Of a DNA stretch of 40,257 bases, positions 1,916-26,847 are shown in pieces. The position numbers were made by a program, and so were the translations under genes. The stretch's first letter is position 1. Every line of letters starts with the position of its first letter. Source of the stretch: Elioraea tepidiphila DSM 17972 (GTDB lineage: Bacteria > Pseudomonadota > Alphaproteobacteria > Acetobacterales > Acetobacteraceae). The stretch spans positions 1-40,257 of the forward strand of contig NZ_KB899939.1 in the NCBI RefSeq assembly GCF_000378465.1. The letters run 5' to 3'. The notes under the pieces were generated by a model. The model saw only the letters and a list, made by a program, of their open reading frames with translations. It was not told the DNA's origin and made no database searches.

Positions 1916-1928
1916 GACCGGCCCTCTG

Positions 1929-3361: not shown

Positions 3362-3401
3362 CGCGCGGTGGTCCTGCCTCGTTCCGTGGTGGGTTGCCCG
3401 A

Positions 3402-6113: not shown

Positions 6114-6824
6114 ATGACTCGCGACGCCGCACAGCGCAAGCGCCCCTCATCGCCGGAGCCCGTTCCCGCCACGGCGACGACCCCTTTCCCGAGCCGCCAG
6201 GAGGCCGTCGCGGAGGCGCTCCGGCTCGACATCCTGCGCGGTCGGCTCGGCGGTGGTGCGCGGCTCGACATCGACGAGATCGCCGCGCGGCACGGCGTCA
6301 GCCGTACGCCGGTGCGCGATGCGTTGAAGCAACTGGAGAGCGAGGGGCTGGTCCAGGTGCTGCCCTATCGCGGCGTCGAGGTCACCGCCCTGACCGACGA
6401 CGACCTGCGCGAGCTCTTCGCGATCCGCATCGCGCTCGAACGGCTTGCCGTCGCCCAGGCCGCGCTGCGCATCACCGAGGCGGAGCTCGACGGGCTGCGG
6501 CGCATCCTCCAGCGCATGGACCGGCTGAAGCAGCGCGACAGGTCGTGGATCGCGCTCAACATCGCCTTCCACGACGCCATCCACGCGGCCACGCGCTGGC
6601 CGCGCCTCATCGAGATGATCCGCATCCAGCGCACGAATGTCGAACGATACGTGCGCGCGCGGGGCTCGGAACTCGGCATCGCCCGGCAGCAGGCCGAGCA
6701 TTGGGCGCTGGTCGAGGCGCTGGCGCGGCACGATCCCGAGGCGGCCGAGCGCATCATCGCCGGGCACCTGCGGCAGACGATGGACGTCCTGTGCCGCGGG
6801 TCGGACGGCGGTGTGGCTGGCTGA
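6114..6824 (+). CDS. GntR-family (FCD domain) transcriptional regulator
   Basis: A 236-residue regulator. The winged-helix DNA-binding domain spans about residues 30-93 (LRLDILRGRL, then IDEIAARHGVSRTPVRDALK and a LVQVLPYRG wing). The FCD ligand-binding domain follows (LFAIRIALERLA, IAFHDAIHAA, a final HLRQTMDVL), with conserved Asp/His residues that in this family bind a metal and a carboxylate effector. It is transcribed away from the catabolic operon across a 44-bp promoter region, the classic layout of a local repressor that answers to a pathway intermediate. There is no Shine-Dalgarno sequence before the ATG. A role at the second divergent locus (12347-12475) is possible, but no copy of the palindrome is visible there. 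Confidence 0.92.
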   Translation: MTRDAAQRKRPSSPEPVPATATTPFPSRQEAVAEALRLDILRGRLGGGARLDIDEIAARHGVSRTPVRDALKQLESEGLVQVLPYRGVEVTALTDDDLRELFAIRIALERLAVAQAALRITEAELDGLRRILQRMDRLKQRDRSWIALNIAFHDAIHAATRWPRLIEMIRIQRTNVERYVRARGSELGIARQQAEHWALVEALARHDPEAAERIIAGHLRQTMDVLCRGSDGGVAG

Positions 6825-6856: not shown

Positions 6857-7828
6857 CTAGGTCGCGAAGTGGCAGGCCGCTTCCTGCCGCTCCCAGTCCG
6901 CGCGCAGCACCGGGTCCTCGTCGGCGCAGCGCTTCTGCGCCTTCGGGCAGCGCGTGCGGAACCGGCAGCCCGACGGCAGCGCGGTCGGGCTCGGCGGCTC
7001 GCCTTCCAGCGCGAAACTGTCCGTCACGCGGGGGCCGCCGATGCGCGGGATCGCGGCCAGCAGCGACTGCGTGTACGGGTGGCGCGGCGCGCTGAAGATC
7101 GCCTCGGTGTCGCCGATCTCCACCACCCGCCCGAGATACATCACCGCGACCCGCTGGCAGATCATGCGCACGACCGAGAGATCGTGCGAGATGAACAGAT
7201 AGGTCAGGCCGAACTGCTCGCGCAGCGACAGCAGCAGGTTCAGGATCGTCGCCTGCACCGACACGTCGAGCCCCGAGGTCGGCTCGTCGAGGATCACCAC
7301 CGAGGGCTTCAGCGTCAGGATGCGCGCGAGCCCGACGCGGCGCTGCTGGCCGCCGCTGATCTCGTGCGGATAGAGATCGAGATGCGTCTCGGGCAGGCCG
7401 ACCGCGCGCAGGATCTCGCGCACGCGCGCCTCGCGTTCCGGTTCCGGCAGGGTCGTGTGCACCACCAGCGGCTCATGCAGCGAGCTGCGAATGGTCCAGC
7501 GCGGATCGAGCGACGCGCCCGGGTCCTGGTAGCAGTACTGGAGATGCTCGCGGAAGCGCCGGCTCTGGTGCGGCTTGAGCTGCGCGATGTCGTGCCCCTC
7601 GAAGATCACGCGCCCCGCGCTCGCGGTGTGGATGCCCATCAGCGTCTTGCCGAGCGTCGACTTGCCGCAGCCCGACTCGCCGACGATGCCGAGGATCTCG
7701 CCGCGCCTGACCGAGAACGACACGTCGTCGAGCACGCGCAGCCAGCCAATCCGGCGCTTCCAGACATTGCGGACCGGGAAGTACTTCCGCAGAGCCTCGA
7801 CCTCGAGGATGGTCTCGGCCGCGCTCAC
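6857..7828 (-). CDS. Oligopeptide/dipeptide-type ABC importer, ATPase 2 (DppF/OppF-like)
   Basis: A 323-residue ATPase. Walker A is GESGCGKS (50-57), the signature is SGGQQ (158-162) and Walker B is VVILDEP (177-183). The C-terminal oligopeptide extension has a Cys-rich cluster (CRFRTRCPKAQKRC, about 296-309) that in DppD/DppF-type subunits can bind an iron-sulfur cluster. It starts four bases inside the preceding ATPase gene (overlap at 7825-7828) and ends the importer operon. It converges on the GntR gene, with 32 bases between the stops. It energises import by the two permeases encoded upstream. Confidence 0.93.
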   Translation of the reverse strand: MSAAETILEVEALRKYFPVRNVWKRRIGWLRVLDDVSFSVRRGEILGIVGESGCGKSTLGKTLMGIHTASAGRVIFEGHDIAQLKPHQSRRFREHLQYCYQDPGASLDPRWTIRSSLHEPLVVHTTLPEPEREARVREILRAVGLPETHLDLYPHEISGGQQRRVGLARILTLKPSVVILDEPTSGLDVSVQATILNLLLSLREQFGLTYLFISHDLSVVRMICQRVAVMYLGRVVEIGDTEAIFSAPRHPYTQSLLAAIPRIGGPRVTDSFALEGEPPSPTALPSGCRFRTRCPKAQKRCADEDPVLRADWERQEAACHFAT

Positions 7829-8862
7829 GAGGCGGGCTCCGTCGCGGAGAGCCTGTGATGGCAGCGCACGCTGTGCAGCGCGTCCACTGCCTCGGGCGGG
7901 GGCCGTTCGGTGCGGCAGATCCCGGTCGCGCGCTCGCAGCGCGGATGGAAGCGGCAGCCGGGTGGCGGATCGATCAGGCGCGGAATCTCCCCGGCGATGC
8001 CGCGGATGCCGGCCTCCGACGACGGCAGGCTGTCGAGCAGCTTGCGGGTGTAGGGGTGGCTCGGCCGTTCGAAGAACCCGTCGACCGGCGCCTCCTCGAC
8101 CTCCTGTCCGGCATACATCACCGTGATGCGGTCGCAGATCTCGTACGCGGCGCCGAGATCATGCGTGGTGAACAGCACCGCCACGCCGCGCTCCCGCGCG
8201 AGCTGCTTCAGCAGCTTCAGGATCTGCGCCTGCACCGTGACATCGAGCGCCGTGGTCGGCTCATCGGCGATCACGAGCTTCGGTTCGGGCAGCAGCGCCA
8301 TCGCGATCATCAGCCGCTGGCGCTGCCCGCCTGAGACCTCGTGCGGATATTTGCGCAGCACGGCCTCCGGGTTCGGCAACTGCACCAGGCGCAGCAGCTC
8401 CAGCACGCGCGCGCGATCGGCCGCGCGCCGCTCGCGCGGATAGCTGTTGAAGAACCCCTGGCGATCGTCCGCGCCACCCCGGAGCAGCGGCGACTTGAAG
8501 CGCATCAGGTCGTCGATCTGCGTGCCGATCGTGAACACCGGATTGAAGGCGGTGGAGGGGTCCTGCGGGATGTAGACGATCTCGCGTCCGCGCACCTCGG
8601 ACGCGAGGGCCGATTCGGGAAGTGTCAGCAGGTCGCGCCCGCCAAAGCGGATCTCGCCGCTCTCGATCCGCGCGCTGTTGCGCGGCAGGATGCCGAGGAT
8701 CGCGCGTGCGAGCGTGGTCTTGCCGCAGCCGGACTCGCCGACCAGGCCGCGGATCTCGCCCGCCCGGATCGCGAGATCGACGCCGTCCAGCACCTTGGCG
8801 GTCCCGGCATCCGAGCCGAACGAGACGCGCAGGTTGCGGACCGAGATCAGCTCACTTGCCAT
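7825..8862 (-). CDS. Oligopeptide/dipeptide-type ABC importer, ATPase 1 (DppD/OppD-like)
   Basis: A 345-residue ATPase with Walker A GESGCGKT (42-49), signature SGGQRQR, Walker B LVIADEPTTALDV and a C-terminal Cys cluster (CRFHPRCERATGIC). An insertion between the Q-loop and the signature (FNSYPRERRAADRARV) is somewhat longer than in DppF. It overlaps both neighbours, by 11 bases with the permease at 8852 and by four with the second ATPase, as expected for a translationally coupled importer. It works with the other ATPase as a heterodimer on the cytoplasmic face. Confidence 0.93.
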   Translation of the reverse strand: MASELISVRNLRVSFGSDAGTAKVLDGVDLAIRAGEIRGLVGESGCGKTTLARAILGILPRNSARIESGEIRFGGRDLLTLPESALASEVRGREIVYIPQDPSTAFNPVFTIGTQIDDLMRFKSPLLRGGADDRQGFFNSYPRERRAADRARVLELLRLVQLPNPEAVLRKYPHEVSGGQRQRLMIAMALLPEPKLVIADEPTTALDVTVQAQILKLLKQLARERGVAVLFTTHDLGAAYEICDRITVMYAGQEVEEAPVDGFFERPSHPYTRKLLDSLPSSEAGIRGIAGEIPRLIDPPPGCRFHPRCERATGICRTERPPPEAVDALHSVRCHHRLSATEPAS

Positions 8863-9706
8863 GCTGCCCTGCGCGCCGGAGCCGGGGATCGAGCACGTCG
8901 CGCAACCCGTCGCCGAGCAGGTTGAACCCCATCACCACCATGAAGATCGCGAGCCCGGGGAAGGCCGCATACCACCAGGCCATCGGCAGGAACTCGCGCG
9001 ATTCGGCGATGGTGCGGCCCCATTCCGGCGTCGGCGGCGGGGGGCCGAGGCCGAGGAAGCCCAGCGTGGCGGCGGTCAGGATCGTGCCCCCCATGCCGAT
9101 CGTCGTGCGCACGATGATCGAGGACGAGATCGAGGGCAGGATGTGCAGCACCATGACGCGGAGCGGCGAGCAGCCGAGCGCGATCGCCGCCTCGACGAAG
9201 GGCTCGTTCTTGATCGAGCGCGTCTCGGCGTAGACGAGGCGCGCCCAGAACGGCCAGTAGGTGGCGGAGAGGGCGAGGATCACGTTCTCGATCGAGGGAC
9301 CGAGCGTCTGCGCGATCGCGATCGCCAGCACGATCTGGGGCACGGCGAGGAAGATGTCGGAGACGCGCATCAGCAGGTCGCTGCCGAGGCCCTCGTAGTA
9401 GCCGGCGACGAGGCCGATCGGCACGCCGATGATCACGGCGATCGTGATCGCGGTGACGGCGATCGTGATGGTGATGCGCGCCCCGAACAGCAGCCGCGAG
9501 TAGATGTCGCTGCCCATGCGGTCCGTGCCGAGCCAGTTCTCGGGCCCGGGCGGGCTCAGGCGGCGGGCGGTGTGGAACTCGGCCACATCGCCGGGATGGG
9601 TCGACAGCCAGGGCGCGAAGATCGCCGCGAGCACGAGCAGCACGATCAGCGCGAGGCCGAGCATCGCGGCCCGGTCCTCGGCGAGCTTGCGCAGCACCCG
9701 GCGCAT
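8852..9706 (-). CDS. Oligopeptide/dipeptide-type ABC importer, permease 2 (DppC-like)
   Basis: A 284-residue membrane protein. It has an N-terminal membrane segment (LGLALIVLLVLAAIFAPWL), the GTDRMGSDIYSRLLFGAR motif typical of DppC/OppC, several further membrane helices and the ATPase-coupling EAA loop (EAAIALGCSPLRVMVLHILP). The TATLGFLGLGPPPPTPEWG segment is also a DppC hallmark. The ATG at 9706 shares a base with the stop of the upstream permease (TGATG), so translation is coupled. It forms the translocation pore with the permease at 9706-10710. Confidence 0.92.
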   Translation of the reverse strand: MRRVLRKLAEDRAAMLGLALIVLLVLAAIFAPWLSTHPGDVAEFHTARRLSPPGPENWLGTDRMGSDIYSRLLFGARITITIAVTAITIAVIIGVPIGLVAGYYEGLGSDLLMRVSDIFLAVPQIVLAIAIAQTLGPSIENVILALSATYWPFWARLVYAETRSIKNEPFVEAAIALGCSPLRVMVLHILPSISSSIIVRTTIGMGGTILTAATLGFLGLGPPPPTPEWGRTIAESREFLPMAWWYAAFPGLAIFMVVMGFNLLGDGLRDVLDPRLRRAGQHGK

Positions 9707-10710
9707 CAGCGCGTCTCCCGCGGATCGATCATGCCCTGGAGGATGTCGACCACCAGGTTGACGACGATGAACATGGTTCCCGCGATCAGCGTGAAGCCCA
9801 TGACCGCGTTGTAGTCCGAGCTCAGGATCGCGTTGACCGCGAACAGGCCGAGCCCTGGCCAGTCGAACACCGCCTCGACCACCACTGCGCCGGCGAGCAG
9901 GATGCCGAAGATCAGCCCGATCTGCGTCACCGTGCCGATCAGCGCGTTGCGCAGCACGTATTTCCAGATCACGAGGCGGCGCGGGTAGCCCATGGCGGTC
10001 TCGTAGAGCACGTAGTTGCTCTCCAGCGCGTTCAGCACGCCGGCGCGGGTGAAGCGCACGATCGTCGCGGCCGCCGGCAGGGCGAGGGTCGCGACCGGCA
10101 GGATCATGTGATGCAGCGCGTCCCAGAGGATCTCCATGTCCCACAGGATCAGCGCGTCGATCACGTAGAAGCCGGTGATCGGCTCCGGCCCCCAGCCTTC
10201 GATCCGCCCGCTGAGCGGCGTGATGCCGAGGCGCATCGAGAACAGCAGCTGCAGCAGGATCGCGAACCAGAAGCTCGCGATCGCGAGGCCCGCGATGGTG
10301 ACGACCCGGAGCGCGTGGTCGAGCCAGGAGTTGCGCTTGAGCGCGCTGACCACGCCGAGCGGGATGCCGATCAGGCTCGCGACCACGATGGTGACGAGCG
10401 TCAGTTCCAGCGTGGCCGGCAGCCGGCTCATCAGGTCCTCGGCGACGGGGCGGCCGGTGAAGATGCTGCGCCCCATGTCGCCTTCGAGGATCGCCTCGAT
10501 GTAGCGGACGAACTGGATGTGCAGCGGCTGATCGAGACCGAGCCGCGCGCGGATCGCGGCGATCGTCTCGGGCGTCGCGTTCTCGCCTGCGACGAAGGCG
10601 GCCGGATCGGCCGGGATCACGTGCGAGATGAAGAAGACGATCGCGAGCAGCCCCAGCACGGTGGGGAAGAACCAGATCAGCCGGTTGACGATCAGGACGA
10701 GCGTCTTCAC
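9706..10710 (-). CDS. Oligopeptide/dipeptide-type ABC importer, permease 1 (DppB-like)
   Basis: A 334-residue permease with the DppB/OppB opening (RLIWFFPTVLGLLAIVFFISHVIP), the periplasmic RLGLDQPLHIQF segment, about six membrane helices and the EAA loop (YETAMGYPRRLVIWKYVLRN). The start codon is GTG at 10710, preceded by GGAGGG at a nine-base spacing. Both ribosome site and start lie in a strong hairpin (10709-10735), so translation may be damped relative to the binding protein upstream. This suits the need for many binding proteins per permease. Confidence 0.92.
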   Translation of the reverse strand: MKTLVLIVNRLIWFFPTVLGLLAIVFFISHVIPADPAAFVAGENATPETIAAIRARLGLDQPLHIQFVRYIEAILEGDMGRSIFTGRPVAEDLMSRLPATLELTLVTIVVASLIGIPLGVVSALKRNSWLDHALRVVTIAGLAIASFWFAILLQLLFSMRLGITPLSGRIEGWGPEPITGFYVIDALILWDMEILWDALHHMILPVATLALPAAATIVRFTRAGVLNALESNYVLYETAMGYPRRLVIWKYVLRNALIGTVTQIGLIFGILLAGAVVVEAVFDWPGLGLFAVNAILSSDYNAVMGFTLIAGTMFIVVNLVVDILQGMIDPRETR

Positions 10711-10735
10711 GGGGCGGCGCCCTCCGCCGCCCCGT
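10709..10735 (-). promoter_or_regulatory. Intercistronic hairpin enclosing the DppB-like start codon
   Basis: On the minus strand ACGGGGCGGCG pairs perfectly with CGCCGCCCCGT (11 bp) around a five-base GAGGG loop. The loop is part of the GGAGGG ribosome site, and the first two bases of the GTG start form the end of the stem. It lies 15 bases after the stop of the binding-protein gene. It could shield the upstream transcript from exonucleases and limit permease translation. Confidence 0.6.
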
Positions 10736-10750
10736 CATCACACCGCAAGG

Positions 10751-12346
10751 TCACGCGATGCTGAGCCAGCGCATCTCCTGCCCGTCGCCGATCGGGCAGA
10801 ACCGCACCCCGCTCACGTTCTTGCGGAACGGCCCGAACCACTTGGTGTTGTGGATATAGATGCCCGCAGCCTCCGCGCTGGAGATGCGCGCCACCTGCTC
10901 GTAGAGCGGCGCGCGCTTCTCCTGGTCGGCGGTGGCGAGCGCCTCGTCCAGCAGCCTATCGACCTCGGGGTTGCTGTAGTAGCTCGCGTTGCCGCCCCGG
11001 TGGCGGTTGGTGTGCAGCAGCTCGCCCGCCCAGTTGTGCGGATCGGCGTAGTAGGTGCTGCGCCACAGGAACAGCACGTCGTACATCTGCTCCGGATCGC
11101 GCATCTTGTTCGACACCACCGGCCAGGGCTCGTTCAGCAGCCGGCTCGGGATGCCGACGCGGTTAAGCCCGTTCTGCAGCAGGGCCGCCGCCTGCATCGA
11201 CTGCTCGTAGCCGACCATGCCGGCGATGACGATCTCGCGCGGCGGCGCGGCCATCTGCGCGATATGCCACTTCGCCCTGTCGATATCGTAGGTGTAGCCG
11301 GCGACATCCTTCGGCGCGCCCCACATGGGGTTGGGAATGACGTGGGTGTTCCGCACCACCGACTTGCCGAGGATGTTGTTGATCCAGCCGTCGTAGTCGA
11401 AGGCGTAGCAGAGCGCCTTGCGGAAATTGACGTCGTTCATCGGCGCCCGCTGGTTGTGGATGCAGGCGTAGAACAGGCGCGTTGATTCCGCCTCCATCAC
11501 GTTCAGGTTCGGATCGGCCTGGAGGCGGGTGATCTGGTCCTGCGGCATGTAGGGGTCGGTGCCCTGGAAGTCGCCGCGGATGAGGCCGAGCACCCGGCTG
11601 TTGACCTCGGCGACGTAGCGGAAGTCGATCTCGGCGAGGCCGGCCGGCCCGAGGAAGTGGTTGTCGAAGCGTTGCGCGAGGAAGCCGCGCGCCGGATCGA
11701 AGCGGCGGATGATGTAGGAGCCCGATCCAGCGTCGTTGCGCGCGACCCACTCCTGGCCCCAGTCGCCGTTGCGTTCGTTGCGCTTCACCAGCGCCGAGTT
11801 GACGACATAGAGGTCATGCGTGGTCGCGGCGAAGATCGCGGAGGCGGACTTGATGTTGAATTCCACCGCATACTTGCCGACCGCCTTGGTGCTGCCCGGA
11901 TCGACCAGGGTCGCGAACAGCGGATACGCCCCCTTCTTGATGGCGAGGATACGCTCCATCGAGTAGACCACGTCCTCGGCGGTCAACTCGGCACCGTCGT
12001 GGAACTTCACGCCCTCGCGCAGCTTGAAGGTGTAGCGCTTGCCGTCGTCCGAGACGGTATAGGACTCGGCGAGCCAGGGCTCCAGCTTGGGCGGATTGTC
12101 CAGCCAGCGCAGCAGCGAGTCGTAGCAGTTGAGGCGATAGGCGACGCGGCCGACATCGAAGGTGGCGTGCGGGTCCATCGTGTCGTAGGCGCTGCCATTG
12201 GCGAAGACGATGCGGCCACCGCCGCGCTGGGCCTCCGCCTCGCGCGGCAGCCCCACCGCGGCGACCGCCGCCCCGGCGGCGCCGGCCTTCAGCACATCAC
12301 GGCGGCCAGGATTGGCCGCGGACGCAGGGTCGTTCTGCTTCCGCAT
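10751..12346 (-). CDS. Peptide-type ABC importer substrate-binding protein (SBP_bac_5), Tat-exported
   Basis: A 531-residue periplasmic binding protein. The N-terminus has a twin-arginine signal (GRRDVLKAGAAGAAVAAVGL, then AEAQ), so export by Tat is likely. The mature part shows family-5 features: FANGSAYDTMDPH, LLRWLDNPPKLEPWLAESYTV, YTFKLREGVKFHDG and ELTAEDVVYSMERI. The ATG at 12346 was chosen because GGGGAG stands seven bases upstream; further upstream ATGs lack a ribosome site. It is the first gene of the importer operon and so sets the ligand for the permease that follows. The ligand (peptide, amide, lactam or cyclic compound) is not predictable. Confidence 0.92.
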   Translation of the reverse strand: MRKQNDPASAANPGRRDVLKAGAAGAAVAAVGLPREAEAQRGGGRIVFANGSAYDTMDPHATFDVGRVAYRLNCYDSLLRWLDNPPKLEPWLAESYTVSDDGKRYTFKLREGVKFHDGAELTAEDVVYSMERILAIKKGAYPLFATLVDPGSTKAVGKYAVEFNIKSASAIFAATTHDLYVVNSALVKRNERNGDWGQEWVARNDAGSGSYIIRRFDPARGFLAQRFDNHFLGPAGLAEIDFRYVAEVNSRVLGLIRGDFQGTDPYMPQDQITRLQADPNLNVMEAESTRLFYACIHNQRAPMNDVNFRKALCYAFDYDGWINNILGKSVVRNTHVIPNPMWGAPKDVAGYTYDIDRAKWHIAQMAAPPREIVIAGMVGYEQSMQAAALLQNGLNRVGIPSRLLNEPWPVVSNKMRDPEQMYDVLFLWRSTYYADPHNWAGELLHTNRHRGGNASYYSNPEVDRLLDEALATADQEKRAPLYEQVARISSAEAAGIYIHNTKWFGPFRKNVSGVRFCPIGDGQEMRWLSIA

Positions 12347-12475
12347 TGCTCGTCTCCCCACAGATTGGTTCGCCATGCTGGTCTGTCTCGCCCGCATACG
12401 TCAAGACGTGGCGCGCTGTTGCCCTGACCGTCATGCGCGCATAGCGTTGATGACGATGCGGCATGACGAGCGGAC
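12347..12475. promoter_or_regulatory. Divergent promoter region between importer and catabolic operons
   Basis: This 129-bp gap separates starts at 12346 (leftward) and 12476 (rightward), so it must carry both promoters. Two small symmetric elements are visible: ACGTC-aa-GACGT at 12398-12409 and the perfect 10-mer ATGCGCGCAT at 12433-12442. Either could be a regulator site, but short GC-rich palindromes arise easily by chance here. No convincing -35/-10 pair is seen, and the AT palindrome of 6095-6106 is not repeated. Confidence 0.45.
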
Positions 12476-13522
12476 ATGGCGGGCAAGCCGATCCTGAAGG
12501 AGCCGATCCTGGTCTGGGGGGCGGGTGCGATCGGCGGCACGATCGGCGCGTTTCTCGTGCGTCACGGCCACGACGTGGTCTTCGTCGATGCCGACCCGGC
12601 CCATGTCCGCGCCATCGCCGCCGGTCGGCTGTCGATCCAGGGTCCTGTTGCGGCCTTCACGGCCGGCGCGCCCGCCTTCACGCCCGATGCGGTCCACGGC
12701 ACCTTTCGCCGCGCGATCCTTGCGGTGAAGGCGCACCACACCGCGACGGCGATCCGCCAGCTCGCCCCGCATCTCGCCCAGGATGGCGCGGTGGTTTCGG
12801 CGCAGAACGGCCTGAACGAGATCGAGATCGCCAACGTGGTCGGACGGCAGCGCACGATCGGCGCCTTCGTCAATTTCGGCGCCGACTGGCAGGCACCCGG
12901 CGAGATCCTCTTCGCGAACCGAGGCGCGGTGGTGATCGGCGAGCTCGACGGCGTCGTGGGCGAGCGCCTGCGCGCGTGGCACGCCCTGCTCTGCGACTTC
13001 GAGCCCGATGCGGTGCTGACCGAGGACATCTTCGCCTATCTCTGGGGCAAGACCGGCTACGGCGCGCTGCTGAAGGCCAGTGCGATCGCCGACATGACGA
13101 TCGCCGGGTTCATCGGCGAGCCGTCGCTGCGCGGGCTCAATGTCGCGCTGGTGCGGGAGGTGCTGGCCGTCGCCGCTGCCGAGGGCGTGGCCCCGCGGGG
13201 CTTCAACGGTTTCGACCCAGTCCCCTTCGCGCGGAACGATGCGGCCGGCATCGACGCCTCGATCGCTGCCATGGTCGCGTTCAACGCGGCCACCGCCAAG
13301 CCCTATTCCGGCGTCTGGCGCGACCTTGCCGTGCGCAGGCGGCCTACGGATTCGGCGGCCCAGCTCGCGCCGGTGCTCGCGGCGGCGCGCCGGCACGGCA
13401 TCGCGACGCCGACGCTGGATCGGCTGGTCGCGCTGATCGGCGCGGTCGAGCGCGGCGAGCGGACGATCGGCCGGCCGCTCGCCGAGGAGCTCAGCGGCAT
13501 CGCGGAAGGAAGACCTGCGTGA
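12476..13522 (+). CDS. Ketopantoate reductase-like (ApbA/PanE fold) dehydrogenase
   Basis: A 348-residue ApbA/PanE-fold enzyme. The Rossmann motif is WGAGAIGGTIGAFL (Gly15-x-Gly17-x-x-Gly20) with an Asp at the end of strand 2 (VVFVDAD), suggesting NAD(H). Further family blocks are AVKAHHTATAI, VSAQNGLNE and LWGKTGYGALLKASAI, which carries the catalytic Lys. It differs clearly from the protein at 3402-4463, so the two are not a recent duplication. It opens the nine-gene rightward operon, and its TGA overlaps the GTG of the next gene. Catabolic use on a 2-oxo or 2-hydroxy acid is more likely than pantothenate synthesis. Confidence 0.85.
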   Translation: MAGKPILKEPILVWGAGAIGGTIGAFLVRHGHDVVFVDADPAHVRAIAAGRLSIQGPVAAFTAGAPAFTPDAVHGTFRRAILAVKAHHTATAIRQLAPHLAQDGAVVSAQNGLNEIEIANVVGRQRTIGAFVNFGADWQAPGEILFANRGAVVIGELDGVVGERLRAWHALLCDFEPDAVLTEDIFAYLWGKTGYGALLKASAIADMTIAGFIGEPSLRGLNVALVREVLAVAAAEGVAPRGFNGFDPVPFARNDAAGIDASIAAMVAFNAATAKPYSGVWRDLAVRRRPTDSAAQLAPVLAAARRHGIATPTLDRLVALIGAVERGERTIGRPLAEELSGIAEGRPA

Positions 13523-14271
13523 CATCACCAACCAAGGTCGCCGTCGTCACGGGCGGCGCGCGCGGCATCGGCCGCGGCTGCGTCCACGCCCTCGCCGAGC
13601 GCGGGCTCGACATCGTCATCGTCGATCTGCTCCGCCCGGAGATGGAGCGCACCCGGGGCGAGATCGAGGCGATGGGCCGGGCGGTGATGATCGAGGAGGC
13701 GGATGTCGCCGACCACGCCCGCGCGCGCGAGATCGCGGCCGCGGTGAAGGCCAGGTTCGGCCGCTGCGATGTGCTGGTGAACAATGCCGGCCGCGGCAAC
13801 CCGACCGGCATCCTCGAGATCACCGAGGAGGCGTTCGACCGCACGATCGCGGTCAACCTCAAGTCCTGCTTCAACTACATCCAGGCCTTCGCGCCACTGA
13901 TGCTGGAGGGCGGCGGCGGGCGCATCGTCTCGATGTCCTCGCTGAACGCGCATACCGGCGGCGTGACCAGCGCGGTCTCGAAGTTCTCCTACGCCGCCGC
14001 CAAGGCCGGCATCATCGGCATGACGAAGGCGCTGGCGAAGGAACTCGGGCCGACCATCGCGATCAACGCGGTCTGCCCTGGCATCATCGAGACCGAGCTC
14101 GGCAATTCGCTCACGCGCACGCGCGGGGCCGAGCTTGCGAAGAAGATCGCGCTCCAGCGCGTCGGCAAGCCGGCGGACGTCGCGCAGCTTGTCGCGTTCC
14201 TGGCCACTGCCGAACCCTTCTTCATCACCGGCCAGGCGATCACCATCGACGGCTTCCAGTGGGAGATCTGA
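13519..14271 (+). CDS. SDR-family NAD(P)-dependent oxidoreductase
   Basis: A 250-residue classical SDR. The cofactor motif is TGGARGIG (11-18), NNAG is at 88-91, the active Ser is in SMSSLN (138-143) and Tyr158-x-x-x-Lys162 is YAAAK. The C-terminus ITGQAITIDGFQWEI is normal for the family. The start is GTG at 13519, overlapping the previous stop (GTGA) and preceded by GGAAGGA. It lies between the ketopantoate-reductase-like gene and hyuA. It likely works on an alcohol or ketone intermediate of the same pathway. Confidence 0.9.
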   Translation: MTSPTKVAVVTGGARGIGRGCVHALAERGLDIVIVDLLRPEMERTRGEIEAMGRAVMIEEADVADHARAREIAAAVKARFGRCDVLVNNAGRGNPTGILEITEEAFDRTIAVNLKSCFNYIQAFAPLMLEGGGGRIVSMSSLNAHTGGVTSAVSKFSYAAAKAGIIGMTKALAKELGPTIAINAVCPGIIETELGNSLTRTRGAELAKKIALQRVGKPADVAQLVAFLATAEPFFITGQAITIDGFQWEI

Positions 14272-14276
14272 CGGGC

Positions 14277-16316: not shown

Positions 16317-16325
16317 GGCCCCGCG

Positions 16326-18290
16326 ATGTCGATCGATCCCGTCACGCTGCAGATCCTCGGCAACCATGCCCAGGCGGCCGCCGAAAGCATGGCATTCACG
16401 CTGTTCCGCACCGCGCATTCCACCTTCGTCAAGGAGACCGAGGATTTCACGACCGGGCTCTGCACGCCCGACGGGCAGACCTTCGCCTCGCCGCGCGAAC
16501 TCGGTGCGACCTGGTTCGTCGGCCTCGACTACGGCCCGGTGATCCGCGCGATCGACGACTACCGCGAGGGCGATGTGTGCATGACCAACGACCCGTATAG
16601 CGGGTTCGTCTGCACCCATTCGCCGGACATCCATCTCTGGAAGCCGATCTTCTGGCAGGGCGAACTCGTCTGTTTCGCGGTCGGCCACATCCACAACACC
16701 GATGTCGGCGGTGCGGTGCCGGCCTCGCTCTCGCGCACGCTGACCGAGGTGCACCAGGAGGGCATCCGCTTCCCGCCCTGCAAGCTGGTGGATGCGGGCA
16801 GGCTCGATCAGCGCCTGCTCGACATCATGCTGCTGAACGTGCGCGCGCCGACCCAGAACTGGGGCGATCTGAAGGCGCAGCTCGCCTCGGTCGCCACCGG
16901 CGAGCGCAAGGTGCACGAGATGATCCGCCGCTTCGGCATCGAGACGTTCCGCCAGGGCATCCGTGACCTGCTCGATCTCGGCGAGCGCCAGGCGCGCCGC
17001 GTGCTCGCCGCCATCCCCGACGGCGACTACCCGTTCACCGACTATCTCGACGAGGATTCGCCGAACGGCCTGCCGTGCCGGCTGCACCTGAACCTGAAGA
17101 TCCGCGGCGAGGAGGCGGTGCTCGACTTCACCGGCTCCGACCCGCAGCTCGCGGCCTCCCTGAACGTGCCGACGGGCGGCAACCCGCGCCACATCCTGCT
17201 GATGGTGGGCTGGAACTACGCGCTCTACACGCTCGACAGCACGGTGCTGCTGAACGGCGGTCTGACGCGCCCCGCGACCTGCATCACGCCGGAAGGAACC
17301 ATCCTGAACCCGGTCTTTCCTGCCGCGGTGGGCATGCGTTCGCTGACCTGCGCGCGACTGCAGGGGGTGATCATGGGTGCCTTCCAGCGCGCGGTGCCCG
17401 ATCGTCTGCCCGCCGGCCCGGCGAGCGGGGGGCCGATGATGAACGTCAACACCACCGACAACCGCACCGGCCGGCGACTGATGGCGGCGATCGACCCGAT
17501 CACGGGCGGCGCCGGCGGCTCGCCTTTCGGCGACGGCATGGACGGGTCGGGAGCGAACAACGGCTTCCTCAAGAACACACCGGTCGAGATCAACGAGGCC
17601 GAGGTGCCGATCCGCATCCTGCGCTACGGGCTGGAACCCGACAGCGGCGGCGCGGGGCTGCATCGCGGCGGTCTCGCGACCGTGCTGGAGTTCCGCGTGC
17701 ACGCGCCGGGCACGGTCGTGACCGCGCGCAACCGCGACCGCACGCGCTTCCGCTCCTGGGGGGTGCAGGGCGGCCGCCCCGGCGCGGCCTCGCAGTTCTG
17801 GCGCAATCCCGGCAGCAACCGCGCCGAGAACCTCGGCAACACGGACGTGGTCACGCTCGATCCGGGCGACGTGATCCGCATCGTCTGCTCGGGCGGATCG
17901 GGCTGGGGTCCGCCCTGGCAGCGGCCCGTCGAGGCCGTGCTCGCCGATCTCGCCGCCGGCAAGGTGACGGCCGAAGCCGCCACGCGCGATTACGGCGTGG
18001 TGCCGGGAGATGACGCGGCGACGGCTGCGCGCCGGGCGGAGCTCGCCGCCGCGCCGCTCCGGATGTTCGACGCGGGGCCGGAACGTGACGCCTATGAGCG
18101 GGTCTGGACGGAGGCGAACTACGCCGAGCTGACCGCGATCCTGGCACGCCTGCCGGTGCATTGGCGCCACTACGCCAAGCGGCGCATCTTCGCCCTGGTC
18201 GATGCCACGCCCGACCGGCGCGGCGACGGCAGCGAGGTGCGCGCCGCCTTCGCCGCCTTGCAGGACGAGTTCCCGCAGATCGCGCACTGA
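16326..18290 (+). CDS. Hydantoinase/oxoprolinase family protein, B subunit (HyuB-like)
   Basis: A 654-residue HyuB-family protein. Characteristic blocks are DPVTLQILGNH at the start, CMTNDPYSGFVCTHSPDIHL (about 79-98, possible metal ligands), GHIHNTDVGGAVPASL, LNVPTGG, the GGSPFGDGMDGSGANN stretch and a final GGSGWGPPWQRP. These match the catalytic partner of HyuA in ATP-dependent cyclic-amide hydrolases and related carboxylases. There is no third small subunit such as that of acetone carboxylase, which favours a hydrolase. A carbamoylase (HyuC) is also missing from the window, so classical hydantoin breakdown is incomplete here. Confidence 0.92.
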   Translation: MSIDPVTLQILGNHAQAAAESMAFTLFRTAHSTFVKETEDFTTGLCTPDGQTFASPRELGATWFVGLDYGPVIRAIDDYREGDVCMTNDPYSGFVCTHSPDIHLWKPIFWQGELVCFAVGHIHNTDVGGAVPASLSRTLTEVHQEGIRFPPCKLVDAGRLDQRLLDIMLLNVRAPTQNWGDLKAQLASVATGERKVHEMIRRFGIETFRQGIRDLLDLGERQARRVLAAIPDGDYPFTDYLDEDSPNGLPCRLHLNLKIRGEEAVLDFTGSDPQLAASLNVPTGGNPRHILLMVGWNYALYTLDSTVLLNGGLTRPATCITPEGTILNPVFPAAVGMRSLTCARLQGVIMGAFQRAVPDRLPAGPASGGPMMNVNTTDNRTGRRLMAAIDPITGGAGGSPFGDGMDGSGANNGFLKNTPVEINEAEVPIRILRYGLEPDSGGAGLHRGGLATVLEFRVHAPGTVVTARNRDRTRFRSWGVQGGRPGAASQFWRNPGSNRAENLGNTDVVTLDPGDVIRIVCSGGSGWGPPWQRPVEAVLADLAAGKVTAEAATRDYGVVPGDDAATAARRAELAAAPLRMFDAGPERDAYERVWTEANYAELTAILARLPVHWRHYAKRRIFALVDATPDRRGDGSEVRAAFAALQDEFPQIAH

Positions 18291-18299
18291 GAAGGGAGC

Positions 18300-19076
18300 A
18301 TGCCGATGCGCTTTTCCGGCCAGAGGGTCGTGATCACCGGCGCGGCCGGCGTCTATGGCCGCGAGCTCTCGGCCGCCTTCGCTGCCGAGGGCGCGCGCCT
18401 TCTCCTCGCCGACCGCAGCGAGGCCGATCTCGCCGCCGCCGTGCCGGCGGGCCTCGCGCCCGACAGGGTGACGCTGCACGCCGCCGATCTCGCGACCGAC
18501 ACGGGCATCGACTCGTTGATCGCGGCGGCGATCGCGGGCGGCGCGCCGGATGTGCTGGTCAACAACGCCGGCATCTATCCCTTCATCCCGCTCATGGAGG
18601 TCACGCCCGCCGAGTACGACCGCATCCTGGGCGTCAACACGCGCGCGCCGTTCCGGCTGATGCAGGGCATCGGGCGGGCGATGGCCGAGGCCGGGCGCGG
18701 CGCGATCGTCAATGTCACCTCCTCGGCCGCCGAGGTGATCCGCGGCAACGGCGTGCCCTACGGCGCATCGAAATGCGCGCTCGAGTATCTCACGCGCGCC
18801 TTCGCGATCGAGCTCGGCCCGCGCGGCGTGCGGGTGAACAGCGCGCGCCCGCCCTTTGCGGAGGGCAGCGCGCTCGTCTCCATGCCGCCTGGCTATGCCG
18901 AGGCGGTGGTTGCGCGCGCGCTGCTCGGGCGCGGGCGCCGCGCCGGCGCCTTCGCCGACGCGGTGCTGTTCCTCTGCTCCGACGCGGCCGACTACATCAC
19001 CGGTGCGGTGCTGGACGTGGGTGGTGGCGGCGCGATCAACCGGCGCGACGGCGCGGCCACCCGCGCGCGCAGCTGA
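18300..19076 (+). CDS. SDR-family oxidoreductase with altered cofactor loop
   Basis: A 258-residue SDR. NNAG is at 88-91, the active Ser is in VTSSAAE (139-145) and Tyr154-x-x-x-Lys158 is YGASK. The cofactor loop reads TGAAGVYG (13-20). Compared with the usual TGxxxGxG the middle Gly is Val18 and the large Tyr19 follows, which could change cofactor binding. Asp at 38 (LLLADRS) suggests NAD(H). The start is preceded by GAAGGGAG. It is the first of three adjacent SDR genes, which are diverged in sequence and so not a recent tandem array. Confidence 0.88.
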   Translation: MPMRFSGQRVVITGAAGVYGRELSAAFAAEGARLLLADRSEADLAAAVPAGLAPDRVTLHAADLATDTGIDSLIAAAIAGGAPDVLVNNAGIYPFIPLMEVTPAEYDRILGVNTRAPFRLMQGIGRAMAEAGRGAIVNVTSSAAEVIRGNGVPYGASKCALEYLTRAFAIELGPRGVRVNSARPPFAEGSALVSMPPGYAEAVVARALLGRGRRAGAFADAVLFLCSDAADYITGAVLDVGGGGAINRRDGAATRARS

Positions 19077-19078
19077 GC

Positions 19079-19846
19079 ATGCCGCGCCCGGATCGCTTCA
19101 CCGGGCGGGTCGGTGTCGTCACCGGCGCGGCCTCCGGGCTTGGCCGAGCGACCGCGATCGGACTGGCCGCCGAGGGCGCGCGGCTGGTCCTGTTCGACCG
19201 CGACGCCGAGGGGCTCGCCGAGACCGCCGCATCGTGCCCCGGTTCGGTCTGTGTCGCGGGCGACGTCACCGCCGCCGCCGACCACGCGCGTGTGCTGGAC
19301 GCGGCCGCACCGCTCGGCCCGATCGCGCTGGTCGCCACCGCCGCCGGCATCCTCGGCCCCGCCGCCCCGCTCACGGATGTTGCGGAAGCCGACTGGGACC
19401 GGCTGTTCGCGGTGAACGTCAAGGGCACCTGGCTCGCGATCCGCGCGATACTGCCGCAGATGCTGGCGGCCGGGCGCGGCGCGATCGTGACCTTCGCCTC
19501 CGGCGCCGGGCTCGCCGGCAACCCGACCATGCCGGCCTATTCGGCGAGCAAGGGCGCGGTGGTGCTGCTGACGCGCTCGCTCGCGGTCAGCCACGTGACG
19601 CAGGGCATTCGCGCCAACTGTGTCTGTCCGGGCCCGATCGAAACGCCCATGCTGCGCGACACCTTCGCCCAGGCGGGTGATGCGGCGGCGGTGGCGGCGC
19701 GCGAGGCGGCGTTCCGCGCGCGCAACCCGATGGGCCGCTTCGGCACCGTCGATGAGGTCGCCGAAAGCGTGCTGTTCCTGCTGAGCGACGCGGCGAGCTA
19801 CATCACCGGCGTGGCGCTGCCGGTGGACGGAGGCAAGCTTGCCTGA
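19079..19846 (+). CDS. SDR-family oxidoreductase with TAAG in place of NNAG
   Basis: A 255-residue SDR. The cofactor motif TGAASGLG (15-22) and Asp40 (VLFDRD) suggest NAD(H). The catalytic Ser is in FASGAG (139-144) and Tyr154-x-x-x-Lys158 is YSASK. The structural NNAG motif is replaced by TAAG (87-90, in VATAAGILG), so the conserved Asn that supports the central sheet is absent. The ATG at 19079 follows the previous stop by two bases. Its stop overlaps the start of the next SDR by eight bases. Probable dehydrogenase for a pathway alcohol. Confidence 0.88.
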   Translation: MPRPDRFTGRVGVVTGAASGLGRATAIGLAAEGARLVLFDRDAEGLAETAASCPGSVCVAGDVTAAADHARVLDAAAPLGPIALVATAAGILGPAAPLTDVAEADWDRLFAVNVKGTWLAIRAILPQMLAAGRGAIVTFASGAGLAGNPTMPAYSASKGAVVLLTRSLAVSHVTQGIRANCVCPGPIETPMLRDTFAQAGDAAAVAAREAAFRARNPMGRFGTVDEVAESVLFLLSDAASYITGVALPVDGGKLA

Positions 19847-20600
19847 CGCGGCGCGCTTCGCCGGCCGCGCCGCGATCGTCACCGGGGCGGCACGCGGTAT
19901 CGGTGCGGCGACCGCGCGCCGGCTCGCCGCTGAGGGCGCGCGCGTCTTGTGCGTCGATAGCGATCCCGCCGTCATCGAGGCTGCCACGGCCTGTGGGGGC
20001 GAGGCGTTGGTGCTCGACGTCGCCGCGCCGGGCGCGGGGCAACGTCTTGCCGACGCGGCCCGCGCCGCGTTCGGTCGCGTCGACATCCTGGTCAACAACG
20101 CTGGCATCGGCGGATCGAAGCCGCTCGCCGAGTCCGACGACGCGCTGATCGACCGCTTCATCGACACCAACCTGAAGGCCGTGCTGCGCATCACCCGCGA
20201 CCTCCTGCCGCTGCTCGCGCGTCCGGGCGGGCGGATCGTCAACGTCGCCTCGGTGTTCGGCGAGGTGGGCCATCCCGGCACCACGGCCTATGCGGTCGCC
20301 AAGGCCGGTGTCGCGCAGTTCACGCGCCAGTTCGCGGGCGAACTCGCGCCCGAGGGCATCCTGGTCAACGCCGTCGCTCCCGGCGTGATCGAGACGCGCA
20401 TGACCGAGGGCCACCGGCAGAACCCCTACTACCTGCGCGCGGTGCTCGCGCCCACACCGCTCCGCCGCGCGGGCGCGCCCGAGGAGGTCGCGTCCGTGAT
20501 CGCGTTCCTGGCCTCGGACGACGCCTCCTACGTCGCGGGCGCCGTGATCGCGGTGGATGGCGGATGGCTTGCGGCACGGCATCCGCCGCGCGAGGCTTGA
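19839..20600 (+). CDS. SDR-family NAD(P)-dependent oxidoreductase
   Basis: A 253-residue SDR with TGAARGIG (15-22), Asp40 (VLCVDSD), NNAG (86-89), the active Ser in VASVFG and Tyr151-x-x-x-Lys155 (YAVAK). The start is probably the TTG at 19839, overlapping the previous stop and preceded by GGAGG. With TTG the length fits the family and the Rossmann fold begins at the usual distance. It is the third SDR in a row and the fourth in the operon. Such runs often serve stepwise oxidation of hydroxy intermediates, or stereoisomer-specific steps. Confidence 0.88.
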   Translation: MPDAARFAGRAAIVTGAARGIGAATARRLAAEGARVLCVDSDPAVIEAATACGGEALVLDVAAPGAGQRLADAARAAFGRVDILVNNAGIGGSKPLAESDDALIDRFIDTNLKAVLRITRDLLPLLARPGGRIVNVASVFGEVGHPGTTAYAVAKAGVAQFTRQFAGELAPEGILVNAVAPGVIETRMTEGHRQNPYYLRAVLAPTPLRRAGAPEEVASVIAFLASDDASYVAGAVIAVDGGWLAARHPPREA

Positions 20601-20628
20601 GCGGATCGATGCAAGGGAACCGAGAGCG

Positions 20629-21459
20629 ATGATCGACATGCGCGTGGCCTGGCCGAACGGCGCCCGGGTTGCGGTGATGCTCACCTTCGACTTCGACGCC
20701 GAGACGCTGTGGCTGTCGCGCGATCCGGCGAACGCGAAGCGGCCGGGCACGCTGAGCCAGGGGACCTACGGCGCCAAGGTGGCGGTGCCGAAGATCCTGG
20801 AGACGCTGGGCGAGGCGGGTGTGAAGGGCACCTTCTTCGTGCCCGGCTGGACGGCCGAACACCACACCAACCGGGTCGAGATGATCCTGCGCGAAGGTCA
20901 TGAGGTCGCGCATCACTCCTACAGCCATCGCTGGGTCGATCCCGATTTCCCCGACCAGGAGATCGAGGAGATGGAGAAGGGGCTGGAGGCGCTGAAGCGC
21001 ACGGTCGGCGTCGTGCCGAAGGGATACCGCTCACCGGCGGGAGAGACGAGCGAGCTGCTGATCAAGCTGTTGCAGAAGCACAACTTCCTCTACGACTCCT
21101 CGCTGATGGACGACATCAACCCCTACCGTCACATCCTGCCGGACGGGTCGAAGGGGCCGATCGAACTGCCCTGGCACTGGAGCCTGGACGACGCGCCGTT
21201 CGCGCTGTTCTCGATCAAGTCGCCGCGGCCGATCTTCACCAACAGCCACATCAAGGAGGTCTGGCAGGACGAGTTCCGCGAGATCTACCGCTGGGGCGGG
21301 CTGTTCGATCTCGTGATGCACCCGCAGGTGAGCGGACGGCCGAGCCGGATCGCGCTGCTGCGCGAGATGATCGCCTGGATCCAGACCTTCCCGGGCGTCT
21401 GGTTCGCGACCGGCACGGAAGTGGCCGAAGCCTGGGCCAGGGCGCACGACAAGGGCTGA
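20629..21459 (+). CDS. Polysaccharide deacetylase (NodB/PuuE-like) family hydrolase
   Basis: A 276-residue protein with the NodB homology fold. The metal and base aspartates are in TFDFD (19-23: Asp21 base, Asp23 metal) and the zinc histidines in HSYSH (His96, His100). A later RSPAGE motif (about 149-154) and FDLVMHPQVSGRPSR near the end match PuuE-type cofactor-independent allantoinases and related amidohydrolases rather than chitin deacetylases. There is no signal peptide, so the enzyme is cytoplasmic and acts on a small molecule. The ATG at 20629 is 28 bases after the SDR stop; an upstream in-frame ATG at 20557 would overlap it. In this operon it is a candidate for hydrolysing a cyclic or linear C-N bond. 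Confidence 0.88.
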   Translation: MIDMRVAWPNGARVAVMLTFDFDAETLWLSRDPANAKRPGTLSQGTYGAKVAVPKILETLGEAGVKGTFFVPGWTAEHHTNRVEMILREGHEVAHHSYSHRWVDPDFPDQEIEEMEKGLEALKRTVGVVPKGYRSPAGETSELLIKLLQKHNFLYDSSLMDDINPYRHILPDGSKGPIELPWHWSLDDAPFALFSIKSPRPIFTNSHIKEVWQDEFREIYRWGGLFDLVMHPQVSGRPSRIALLREMIAWIQTFPGVWFATGTEVAEAWARAHDKG

Positions 21460-21464
21460 ACGGG

Positions 21465-21483
21465 GCCGGCGGATGGCGCCGGC
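21465..21483 (+). promoter_or_regulatory. Small intercistronic hairpin before the second binding protein
   Basis: GCCGGCG and CGCCGGC pair perfectly (7 bp) around GATGG. The hairpin lies between the deacetylase stop and the AGAGGAGAGG ribosome site of the binding-protein gene. No T tract follows. It may stabilise or separate the downstream message, which would allow a different level of the binding protein. Confidence 0.4.
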
Positions 21484-21504
21484 GACTCGCAGAGGAGAGG
21501 AACG

Positions 21505-23103
21505 ATGGGACTGAGAGGCGCACTCCGGAACGGTGCGCTGGCGGCGCTGCTCGCCTTGGGCGCGGTGCAGCCGGCAGGGGCGCAGGCGGACCGGCCATTC
21601 CGCTTCGTCGTCAATGTCGGTTTGCAGAATCTCGATCCGATCGCGGGCCCGTCCTTCGTCACCCGCAACTTCGCCTACCTCGTGTTCGACACGCTGGTGG
21701 CGATGGACAGCCAGGGCCAGTTCCGGCCGCAGATGCTGGAGGGCTGGCAGGTCAGCGATGATCGGCTGACCTGGACCTTCAAGCTGCGGCCTGGGCTCAA
21801 GTTCCACGACGGCAGCCGCGTGACGGCCGATGACGTGGTCGCCTCGCTCCGGCGCTGGGGCGGGCGCGATGCGATCGGGCGGCGGCTGATGGCGGCGACG
21901 CGCGAGCTGCGCGTGGTCGATCCCGACGCCTTCGTGATCGCACTGTCGCGGCCCTTCGGCGGCGTGCTCGACGCGCTCGGCAAGCCGAGCGTGCACGTGC
22001 CCTTCATCATGCCCGCGCGCATCGCCGATGCCACGCCGCCGACCCAGACCGTGCGCGAGATCATGGGCTCGGGGCCGTTCCTGTTCGACCGCAGCACCTG
22101 GGTGCCGGGCGAGAAGGCGGAGTTCCGCCGCAACCCCGACTACGTGCCGCGCGCCGAACCGGCGGACGGGCTCGCCGGCGGCAAGGTGCCGAAGCTCGAG
22201 CGCGTGGAGATGCTGACGCTGCCCGATCCGGGGTTGCGCGCGGCCGCCTTGCAGCAGAACGAGGTGGACTACCTCGAATACGTGCCGGTCGATCACCTGC
22301 CGCGGCTGCAGCGCAACCGCAACATCGTGATCGCCAAGGCCAGTGGCATCGCGCAGATGATGTACGCGCTCAGCATCAATCACGCGCTGCCACCGTTCAA
22401 CGACGTGCGGATGCGTCGCGTGCTGCAGCAGGTGCTGGATCGCCACGAGATCCTCGCCGGCGCCGGCGTGCCGTCCGAGCTCGCCTTCCCCGACTGCGTC
22501 TCGCTGTTCATGTGCGGCGCCCCGTATTCCAGCGAGCGCGGTGCGGACGTGATCCGCCAGCCGTCGCTGGAGAAGGCGCGCAGCCTGCTGCGCGAGGCGG
22601 GCTACAACAACGAGCCGATCACCGTGCTGCTGCCGGCGGACTCGATCCTGCTGAACCCCTACGGGCTGGTGCTGATCGACCGGCTGAAGCGGGCGGGGGT
22701 GAACGTGGACGTGCAGGCGCAGGACTGGAGCTCGATCGCGCAGCGCTGGGTCCGCCGCGAACCGATCGGCCAGGGTGGCTGGCATCTCGTGCCCGTGGTC
22801 TATACCGGCTTCGACATGTCCGACCCGCTGAGCAATCTCGGCACGGGCTACAACTGCACCGGCAACCAGCCCTGGGGCTATTGCGACCAGGCGATGCAGA
22901 CGCTGATCGAGCAGTTCGAGGCCGAGAGCGATATCGCGAAGCGCAAGGAACTGGCCGCGCAGATCCAGGAGGCGTCGTACCGCAACGTCACCTTCCCGAT
23001 CGCCGGGCAGTTCCGCAGCCCGGCGGCCTGGCGCGCGGAACTGCGCGGCGTGATCGATTTCGGCTTCCCGGTGATCTGGAACATCGAGCGGCCGGGGCGC
23101 TGA
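21505..23103 (+). CDS. Peptide-type ABC importer substrate-binding protein (SBP_bac_5), Sec-exported
   Basis: A 532-residue family-5 binding protein. It has a Sec signal (LAALLALGAVQPAGAQ, cleavage after about residue 28). The mature domain includes NLDPIAGPSFVTRNFAYLVF, LTWTFKLRPGLKFHDG and VTADDVVASLRRWG. Two Cys pairs (FPDCVSLFMCG and YNCTGNQPWGYC) could form disulfides. It is the last gene of the rightward operon and has no permease of its own. It may share the DppBCDF-like permease encoded at 6857-10710, giving that importer a second ligand range. The ribosome site AGAGGAGAGG is very strong. Confidence 0.92.
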   Translation: MGLRGALRNGALAALLALGAVQPAGAQADRPFRFVVNVGLQNLDPIAGPSFVTRNFAYLVFDTLVAMDSQGQFRPQMLEGWQVSDDRLTWTFKLRPGLKFHDGSRVTADDVVASLRRWGGRDAIGRRLMAATRELRVVDPDAFVIALSRPFGGVLDALGKPSVHVPFIMPARIADATPPTQTVREIMGSGPFLFDRSTWVPGEKAEFRRNPDYVPRAEPADGLAGGKVPKLERVEMLTLPDPGLRAAALQQNEVDYLEYVPVDHLPRLQRNRNIVIAKASGIAQMMYALSINHALPPFNDVRMRRVLQQVLDRHEILAGAGVPSELAFPDCVSLFMCGAPYSSERGADVIRQPSLEKARSLLREAGYNNEPITVLLPADSILLNPYGLVLIDRLKRAGVNVDVQAQDWSSIAQRWVRREPIGQGGWHLVPVVYTGFDMSDPLSNLGTGYNCTGNQPWGYCDQAMQTLIEQFEAESDIAKRKELAAQIQEASYRNVTFPIAGQFRSPAAWRAELRGVIDFGFPVIWNIERPGR

Positions 23104-26738: not shown

Positions 26739-26847
26739 CGTTCACTCCCTCGCTGGTTGGTCCGGTGACACTGGCACGGCCCGGCCGCGCTTGTCAGCCT
26801 GTCCGCCCGTCCCGTAGCGTGCCCAGAACGAGCGTGGGAGGATGATC

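Follow-up and report, generated by a model that had tools for sequence, protein, structure and literature searches.

Does the divergent locus near the start of contig NZ_KB899939.1 of the alphaproteobacterium Elioraea tepidiphila DSM 17972 encode one catabolic pathway, and on what kind of compound would it act? The stretch that we analysed, hereafter the window, comprises the first 40,257 nucleotides of this contig (assembly GCF_000378465.1). An earlier note on its sequence had described a complete Dpp-type importer (6857-12346, minus strand) divergent from nine genes (12476-23103, plus strand) and had read the whole as a candidate undescribed route for a nitrogen-containing ring compound. The gene list, coordinates included, was correct, and all fourteen proteins scored above the curated cut-off of their Pfam family (Table 1). 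The nine genes encode a ketopantoate-reductase-like enzyme (KPR), four short-chain dehydrogenases/reductases (SDR1 to SDR4), the subunits HyuA and HyuB of a HyuAB-type hydrolase, a NodB-type hydrolase, and SBP2, the second solute-binding protein of the locus after SBP1 of the importer. Between adjacent plus-strand genes there is either an overlap of 4 or 8 bases or a gap of 2 to 45 bases, so that one transcript for all nine is plausible. Judged by gene order across genomes, the nine-gene operon is nevertheless a fusion of two separately conserved cassettes, so far seen only in the window's genome: module 1, which comprises the importer and the genes from KPR to SDR2, and module 2, which comprises SDR3, SDR4, NodB, and SBP2.

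The evidence for this fusion came from both cassettes. A scan for HyuB across one genome per species (84,980 species) returned 457 places with a HyuB relative, and the best 80 were analysed as loci; raw open reading frames (ORFs) were used for the locus counts because the GC-frame gene caller misses genes in AT-rich loci. None of the 80 loci carried SDR3 or SDR4 (at least 55% identity) or SBP2 (at least 45%) beside HyuB, and the view that all nine genes form one conserved unit was therefore rejected; 70 of the 80 loci extend 0.9 kb or more past HyuB. Searching 200 genomes of the family with SBP2 gave matches in 47, and the best matches (63-71% identity) led to 15 module-2 loci, one of them a 6.7-kb contig. 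A homolog of SDR3 was present in 12 of the 15, SDR4 and NodB in 11 each, and all four genes in seven, and neither HyuA nor HyuB stood beside module 2 in any of them. One genome (G239) holds module 1 (L214) and module 2 (L202) on separate contigs. Another, of the same genus as the window (G006), has module 1; at 1e-40 its NodB proteins belonged solely to the subfamily called I below, and no SBP2 match at 1e-120 was found among the 7 of its 45 candidates that were scored. Since module 2 is absent beside HyuB and free-standing in relatives, the operon is best understood as two cassettes joined, and the idea of nine genes forming one conserved pathway was not borne out. In the nearest relative, Elioraea sp. 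Yellowstone (L009), the contig stops shortly after SDR2, and the junction between the modules is not comparable there.

What is kept elsewhere is the importer together with the first five operon genes. Among the 40 well-covered HyuB loci (each at least 21 kb), the importer, scored as SBP1, DppB, and DppC at set identity limits, was present in 26; SDR1 was found in 21 of these 26 and in none of the 14 without importer, counts that depend on the identity thresholds. The full order of importer, KPR, SDR1, HyuA, HyuB, and SDR2 was seen in Elioraea sp. Yellowstone, in Roseomonas sp. HF4 (L011), and in Neoroseomonas lacus (L016), with KPR matches of 70-85%; other loci showed other layouts, such as HyuA, HyuB, SDR, NodB, SBP1, and DppBCDF. 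The nearest named HyuB is that of Elioraea sp. Yellowstone, at 92% identity, and further strains with this HyuB subfamily include Falsiroseomonas and Neoroseomonas strains, Reyranella soli, Pseudooceanicola nanhaiensis, Maritimibacter alkaliphilus, and Hoeflea olei. A cluster of regulator genes lay near HyuA in 25 loci, the single member scanned being of the IclR type, and several HyuB loci contained a second HyuAB pair. In one locus (L023, 7597-12016), a 112-residue ORF was flanked by HyuB genes with 68% and 69% identity to the window, and two SBP1 genes were present as well, perhaps through tandem duplication or as an assembly effect.

The importer itself comprises, in a single operon, a family-5 binding protein and a pair each of permeases and ATPases, which is the make-up of the DppABCDF peptide importer; it differs from that system in its binding protein, which scores 118 against a cut-off of 1005 for the DppA model. 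The nearest solved chains to SBP1 are heme- and dipeptide-binding proteins (132-135 bits), and its leader falls just under the Pfam cut-off for TAT_signal and over that of TIGR01409. KPR likewise scored below the cut-off of TIGR00745 (133.6 vs 141.35 bits). The importer as a hallmark of this particular HyuAB had to be softened, as Dpp-like genes also occur at two of the seven other HyuA loci of the window's own genome. Parts of other ABC transporters lie near several of those loci (L216 to L222); the genome is seemingly well stocked with ATP-dependent amide hydrolases, and some of these may have importers of their own.

Is HyuAB an enzyme that has already been described? The window proteins have the hallmarks of the superfamily: HyuA contains the full set of three Pfam domains and the two phosphate motifs for ATP; of 75 ortholog rows, 97% keep D10 and 100% keep D289 and the fixed letters of GxxPGP, and the adenine motif is intact. 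The four metal ligands of HyuB (D40, H98, D101, and H123, corresponding to Asp41, His99, Asp102, and His124 of CapB) are invariant in 82 rows. For the caprolactamase CapAB of Pseudomonas jessenii, mutants show that the ATP-motif and metal-ligand residues matter, according to the accessible part of its description (PMC8453981). HyuA shares 34.9% identity with N-methylhydantoinase (7hk5), 34.2% with CapA (6yra), 33.4% with acetone carboxylase, and 31.5% with acetophenone carboxylase, and 33-41% with its seven paralogs in the same genome. In a quick tree of 109 rows, the 75 orthologs made up one side of a branch with support of 100, and an 80-row tree concurred; the ortholog rows were picked at 48% identity, and the actual gap lies between 41% and 52%. 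The branches outside this group are long, so that their exact placement is unsure. By identities, NCBIfam scores, and trees, HyuAB groups with no described function, which counts in favour of the earlier note, and no description of the cluster turned up in searches of open-licence literature.

We regard it as very improbable that HyuAB is simply one of three known enzymes, 5-oxoprolinase, caprolactamase, or N-methylhydantoinase, with uncommon neighbours. The Pfam families are the same, identity to 6yra and 7hk5 reaches 34-35%, and caprolactamase alpha is the best NCBIfam model for HyuA, but the caprolactamase models NF050156 and NF050157 gave 430.7 and 257.6 bits where 1000 are required for each, and the 75 ortholog rows stand apart from both references in the tree. 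HyuB moreover has residues and a C-terminus specific to its subfamily, and among the seven further HyuA loci of the genome one (L216) encodes a 1203-residue HyuA-HyuB fusion, as in eukaryotic 5-oxoprolinases. CapAB resembles the window pair in its two subunits, domains, ATP motifs, and four metal ligands; it differs in that window HyuA is only 34% identical and that the window has the extra HyuB C-terminus and an importer, SDRs, and NodB alongside. The N-methylhydantoinase 7hk5 and the HyuABC system share the HyuA and HyuB domains. However, 7hk5 is a single chain of 1288 residues containing both parts, with Gln aligned at the third metal-ligand position, and the window operon lacks the HyuC-like carbamoylase of HyuABC. 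The absence of a carbamoylase stated in the earlier note applies to the operon alone (12476-23103), the rest of the genome not having been scanned for one.

HyuB is set apart by features near its metal site and at its end. Compared with 24 paralogs, the orthologs have subfamily-specific invariants that include H103, H121, N124, T125, and R137, all near the metal ligands in sequence. The whole ORFs of the 24 paralogs stop at or before residue 604 (window numbering), whereas 81 ortholog rows run on to residues 630-663, so the extra C-terminus amounts to about the last 50 residues (605-654); in this segment, L606, P610, W613, R614, K618, F622, and P650 are invariant at 95% or more. Six HyuB paralogs of the same genome have 541-594 residues, compared with 654 for window HyuB. 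Searched by themselves, residues 566-654 gave no hit to a PDB chain (E up to 10) or to a Pfam family (E up to 0.1).

This extension bears on a different explanation, in which HyuAB would be an ATP-dependent carboxylase of an SDR-made ketone, in the style of acetophenone or acetone carboxylase, and the pathway would degrade a secondary alcohol. The acetophenone and acetone carboxylases (5l9w, 5m45) have homologous ATP and metal subunits, and C-terminal arms are also found on carboxylase subunits, the metal subunit among them, according to the available sections of PMC8453981; HyuB, at 654 residues against 581 for CapB, would fit this pattern. Moreover, some SDR lies directly behind HyuB in 40 of the 70 loci with at least 0.9 kb of sequence past HyuB, although mostly it is not the SDR2 ortholog. 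We nonetheless consider this explanation improbable, if less so than that of a known hydrolase. The acetophenone carboxylase models scored far under their cut-offs (for HyuA, 210 bits where NF042975 requires 1500 and 193 where NF042960 requires 1250; for HyuB, 103 bits where NF042976 requires 1500), the nine operon genes include no third small carboxylase subunit or other further subunit, the C-terminus of HyuB is similar to no solved chain in the search described above, and the recurrent NodB hydrolase indicates C-N chemistry instead.

What kind of hydrolase is NodB, and does it belong with HyuAB? The window protein has no signal-like stretch at its start. Its structural model (mean predicted local distance difference test score, pLDDT, of 88) gave query-normalised template modelling (TM) scores of 0.87 to 3rxz, 0.82 to HpPgdA, and 0.82 to the allantoinase PuuE. 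This placed it in the PuuE/PgdA branch, with TM 0.80-0.88 against at most 0.64 for other CE4-fold chains among the matches listed, which were the best 50 of 1022; normalisation by target length gave some short targets higher scores. In 19 aligned sequences, D21, D23, H96, and H100, the putative metal and catalytic residues, were invariant. PuuE, HpPgdA, and 3rxz share the fold, yet their identity to the window protein is 21-41%, and the PuuE allantoinase model TIGR03212 scored 77.2 bits against a cut-off of 424.6. Like the window protein, HpPgdA has no signal-like stretch, and the accessible portion of its structure paper argues that small-molecule binding is more likely and reports inactivity on the compounds tested, allantoin included.

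The earlier note had paired HyuAB with a NodB-type hydrolase, and this pairing does recur in other lineages, but there with a NodB subfamily distant from that of the window. NodB was found near HyuB in 25 of the 80 loci, in three placements: in 13 it follows the HyuB start by about 2-3 kb, in seven it precedes that start by about 3 kb, and in five by about 10 kb, on the far side of the importer. In a tree of 51 NodB rows the window protein fell in clade II, and 21 NodB proteins from HyuB loci fell in the distant clade I (four of the 25 were outside the tree); the label 'beside HyuAB' required three changes on this tree, at least two of them forced by well-supported branches. Subfamily-I NodB was present in 19 of 20 hand-picked HyuB-bearing genomes; nine of the 20 counted as adjacent, and most of the others hold the gene elsewhere or just outside the stretch. 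Five family loci around subfamily-I NodB had an amidase within a few kb in four cases and a gene of the gamma-glutamyltransferase family in three, and a more distant NodB locus (L129) had two SDRs and an amidase. Such neighbourhoods would suit hydrolysis of a cyclic amide or imide followed by amide cleavage. The gamma-glutamyltranspeptidase-family genes were in L165, L166, and L168. Cyclic imide hydrolases are presumably related to the PuuE/PgdA branch, which the literature check did not confirm.

HyuB and subfamily-I NodB also co-occurred at the genome level. In a class sample of 385 genomes, 12 carried HyuB (E at most 1e-230), 21 carried subfamily-I NodB (E at most 1e-90), and 8 carried the two together, against an expectation of 0.65 (Fisher 8e-9), and with the window's genome removed 7 of 11 HyuB genomes had this NodB. 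In a family sample of 200 genomes, with HyuB at E up to 1e-180, the corresponding numbers were 27, 85, and 25 (expected 11.5, Fisher 8e-9), although many of these HyuB are not of the module-1 type, as just 4 of the 27 match at 80% or more. These statistics ignore genome size and kinship, are based on a few best candidates per genome, and assume that the same genomes were drawn each time, as handles and totals suggest.

The reading that we prefer is that the joined cassettes import, oxidise, and with ATP open a small ring amide or imide; we hold it tentatively, at a little under an even chance. We infer both the substrate class, a nitrogen ring, and the order of steps, the former from the enzyme families. 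The compound imported by SBP1 and DppBCDF would be small, polar, and ring-shaped, with lactams, cyclic imides, hydantoins, and cyclic dipeptides as the likeliest candidates. Cyclic dipeptides would fit an importer of the Dpp type as well; relatives L032 and L070 have a second HyuAB plus an M20-family hydrolase (of the PRK07079 family in L032). The SDR and KPR enzymes may then oxidise a hydroxyl group on the ring in an NAD-dependent manner. SDR1 to SDR4 and KPR have an acidic residue after the second strand, a feature that goes with NAD rather than NADP; the NAD preference that it suggests points to oxidation. HyuA would spend ATP to activate the ring carbonyl, and the C-N bond so activated would be hydrolysed at the metal site of HyuB; several characterised HyuAB relatives are indeed ring-amide hydrolases, as tabulated in the accessible part of PMC8453981 (Table 1 of that paper). 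A PuuE/PgdA-like NodB hydrolase, which module 2 contributes here and the distant NodB subfamily contributes in other lineages, could cleave a second amide or imide bond. SBP2, whose nearest solved chain is 8vdx (290 bits), might pass another substrate, related to the first, on to the module-1 permease. No permease genes lie beside SBP2 in window module 2 or in the corresponding module of G042, and permease sharing is a guess.

Several observations weigh against this reading. HyuAB stands without this importer in 14 of the 40 well-covered loci, some of them beside another ABC system, and 55 of the 80 HyuB loci have no NodB in the available stretch. Carboxylases are also among the HyuAB relatives, and window HyuB lacks the caprolactamase active-site Tyr136, at whose place Leu135 aligns, and the vicinal Cys410-Cys411. 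Finally, a non-orthologous HyuB paralog used as a control overlapped with subfamily-I NodB in 3 of 7 genomes; the co-occurrence of HyuB and NodB is therefore only weakly specific, and its use as specific proof of a tie between HyuAB and NodB was weakened accordingly. It is thus possible, if on the unlikely side, that the two modules are unrelated pathways that share one transcript here, with window NodB unconnected with HyuAB: the paralog control and the many loci lacking NodB would fit, as would the free-standing module 2 of relatives and the separate contigs in G239. Against it, NodB of a different subfamily lies near HyuAB in the 25 loci and in the three placements given above.

The coordinates of the locus are collected in Table 1. 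The gene calls are those of the GC-frame caller, since longest-ORF calling gave spurious antisense ORFs, and HyuA has an alternative GTG start at 14259. The kinase-cytidylyltransferase fusion that closes the operon on the right is one that we take to be HldE.

Table 1. Features of the importer and operon in the window, with the families and matches on which each is based.
Feature	Position	Strand	Basis
DppF-type ABC ATPase, module 1 importer	6857..7828	-	PF00005 + PF08352; 62-87% matches in HyuB loci
DppD-type ABC ATPase, module 1 importer	7825..8862	-	PF00005 + PF08352; 57-89% matches in HyuB loci
DppC-type permease, module 1 importer	8852..9706	-	PF00528 + PF12911; 26/40 well-covered loci
DppB-type permease, module 1 importer	9706..10710	-	PF00528 + PF19300; 26/40 well-covered loci
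SBP1, family-5 solute-binding protein, Tat-like leader	10751..12346	-	PF00496; 26/40 well-covered loci
129-base intergenic region of the divergent transcripts, likely promoter region	12347..12475		coordinates, sequence
KPR, ketopantoate-reductase-like NAD(P) enzyme	12476..13522	+	PF02558 + PF08546
SDR1, classical SDR	13519..14271	+	PF13561; YAAAK and TGGARGIG motifs
HyuA, ATP-binding subunit of HyuAB-type hydrolase	14277..16316	+	PF05378, PF01968, PF19278
HyuB, metal-site subunit	16326..18290	+	PF02538
SDR2, directly 3' of HyuB	18300..19076	+	PF13561
SDR3, module 2	19079..19846	+	PF13561
SDR4, module 2	19839..20600	+	PF13561
NodB-type hydrolase, subfamily II, PuuE/HpPgdA branch, module 2	20629..21459	+	PF01522
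SBP2, family-5 binding protein, module 2	21505..23103	+	PF00496
PfkB-kinase + cytidylyltransferase fusion	23147..24628	-	convergent; bounds operon on right

The flanks of the window contain further genes. On the left, a minus-strand operon (256-5974) encodes an Asp/Glu/hydantoin racemase family protein, an SDR, two CMD proteins, an alpha/beta hydrolase, a second ketopantoate-reductase-like enzyme, and a TctC binding protein, and beside it lies a plus-strand GntR-FCD regulator gene (6114-6824), the two making up a second catabolic-looking gene set. As parts of the system under study they were set aside, as the genes called left of DppF at locus L161 of Elioraea sp. Yellowstone matched none of them. 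Right of the nine-gene operon, a sulfatase-family gene (27866-29320, minus strand) lies next to another TctC binding protein (26842-27804), and a PADLOC scan of two right-flank ORFs gave no match. A plus-strand gene with a transposase domain (DUF772; 39132-39878) is located at the right end, and the fragment at the left end we take to be transposase-like; with such genes at both ends, the contig probably breaks at repeated insertion sequences.

What would the locus mean for these bacteria? From the genomes compared, the module-1 core is common to many soil and marine bacteria. Homologs of capAB are often labelled hydantoinase or oxoprolinase without an established function, as noted in the accessible part of PMC8453981. 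One doubtful but possible extension is that HyuB with its extra C-terminus and R137, H103, H121, and N124 represents a new enzymatic subfamily which, with a NodB partner and the importer, would open an unrecognised common ring compound in soil and marine Alphaproteobacteria, SAR116 included, and to which an Elioraea-like species would have added a second-substrate cassette. Because the subfamily can be recognised by sequence, its context is recurrent, and the named strains are presumably cultivable, the substrate is directly testable. If it proved to be a common dissolved nitrogen compound, the cluster would provide a set of marker genes by which to follow the turnover of that compound on land, in soils, and at sea.

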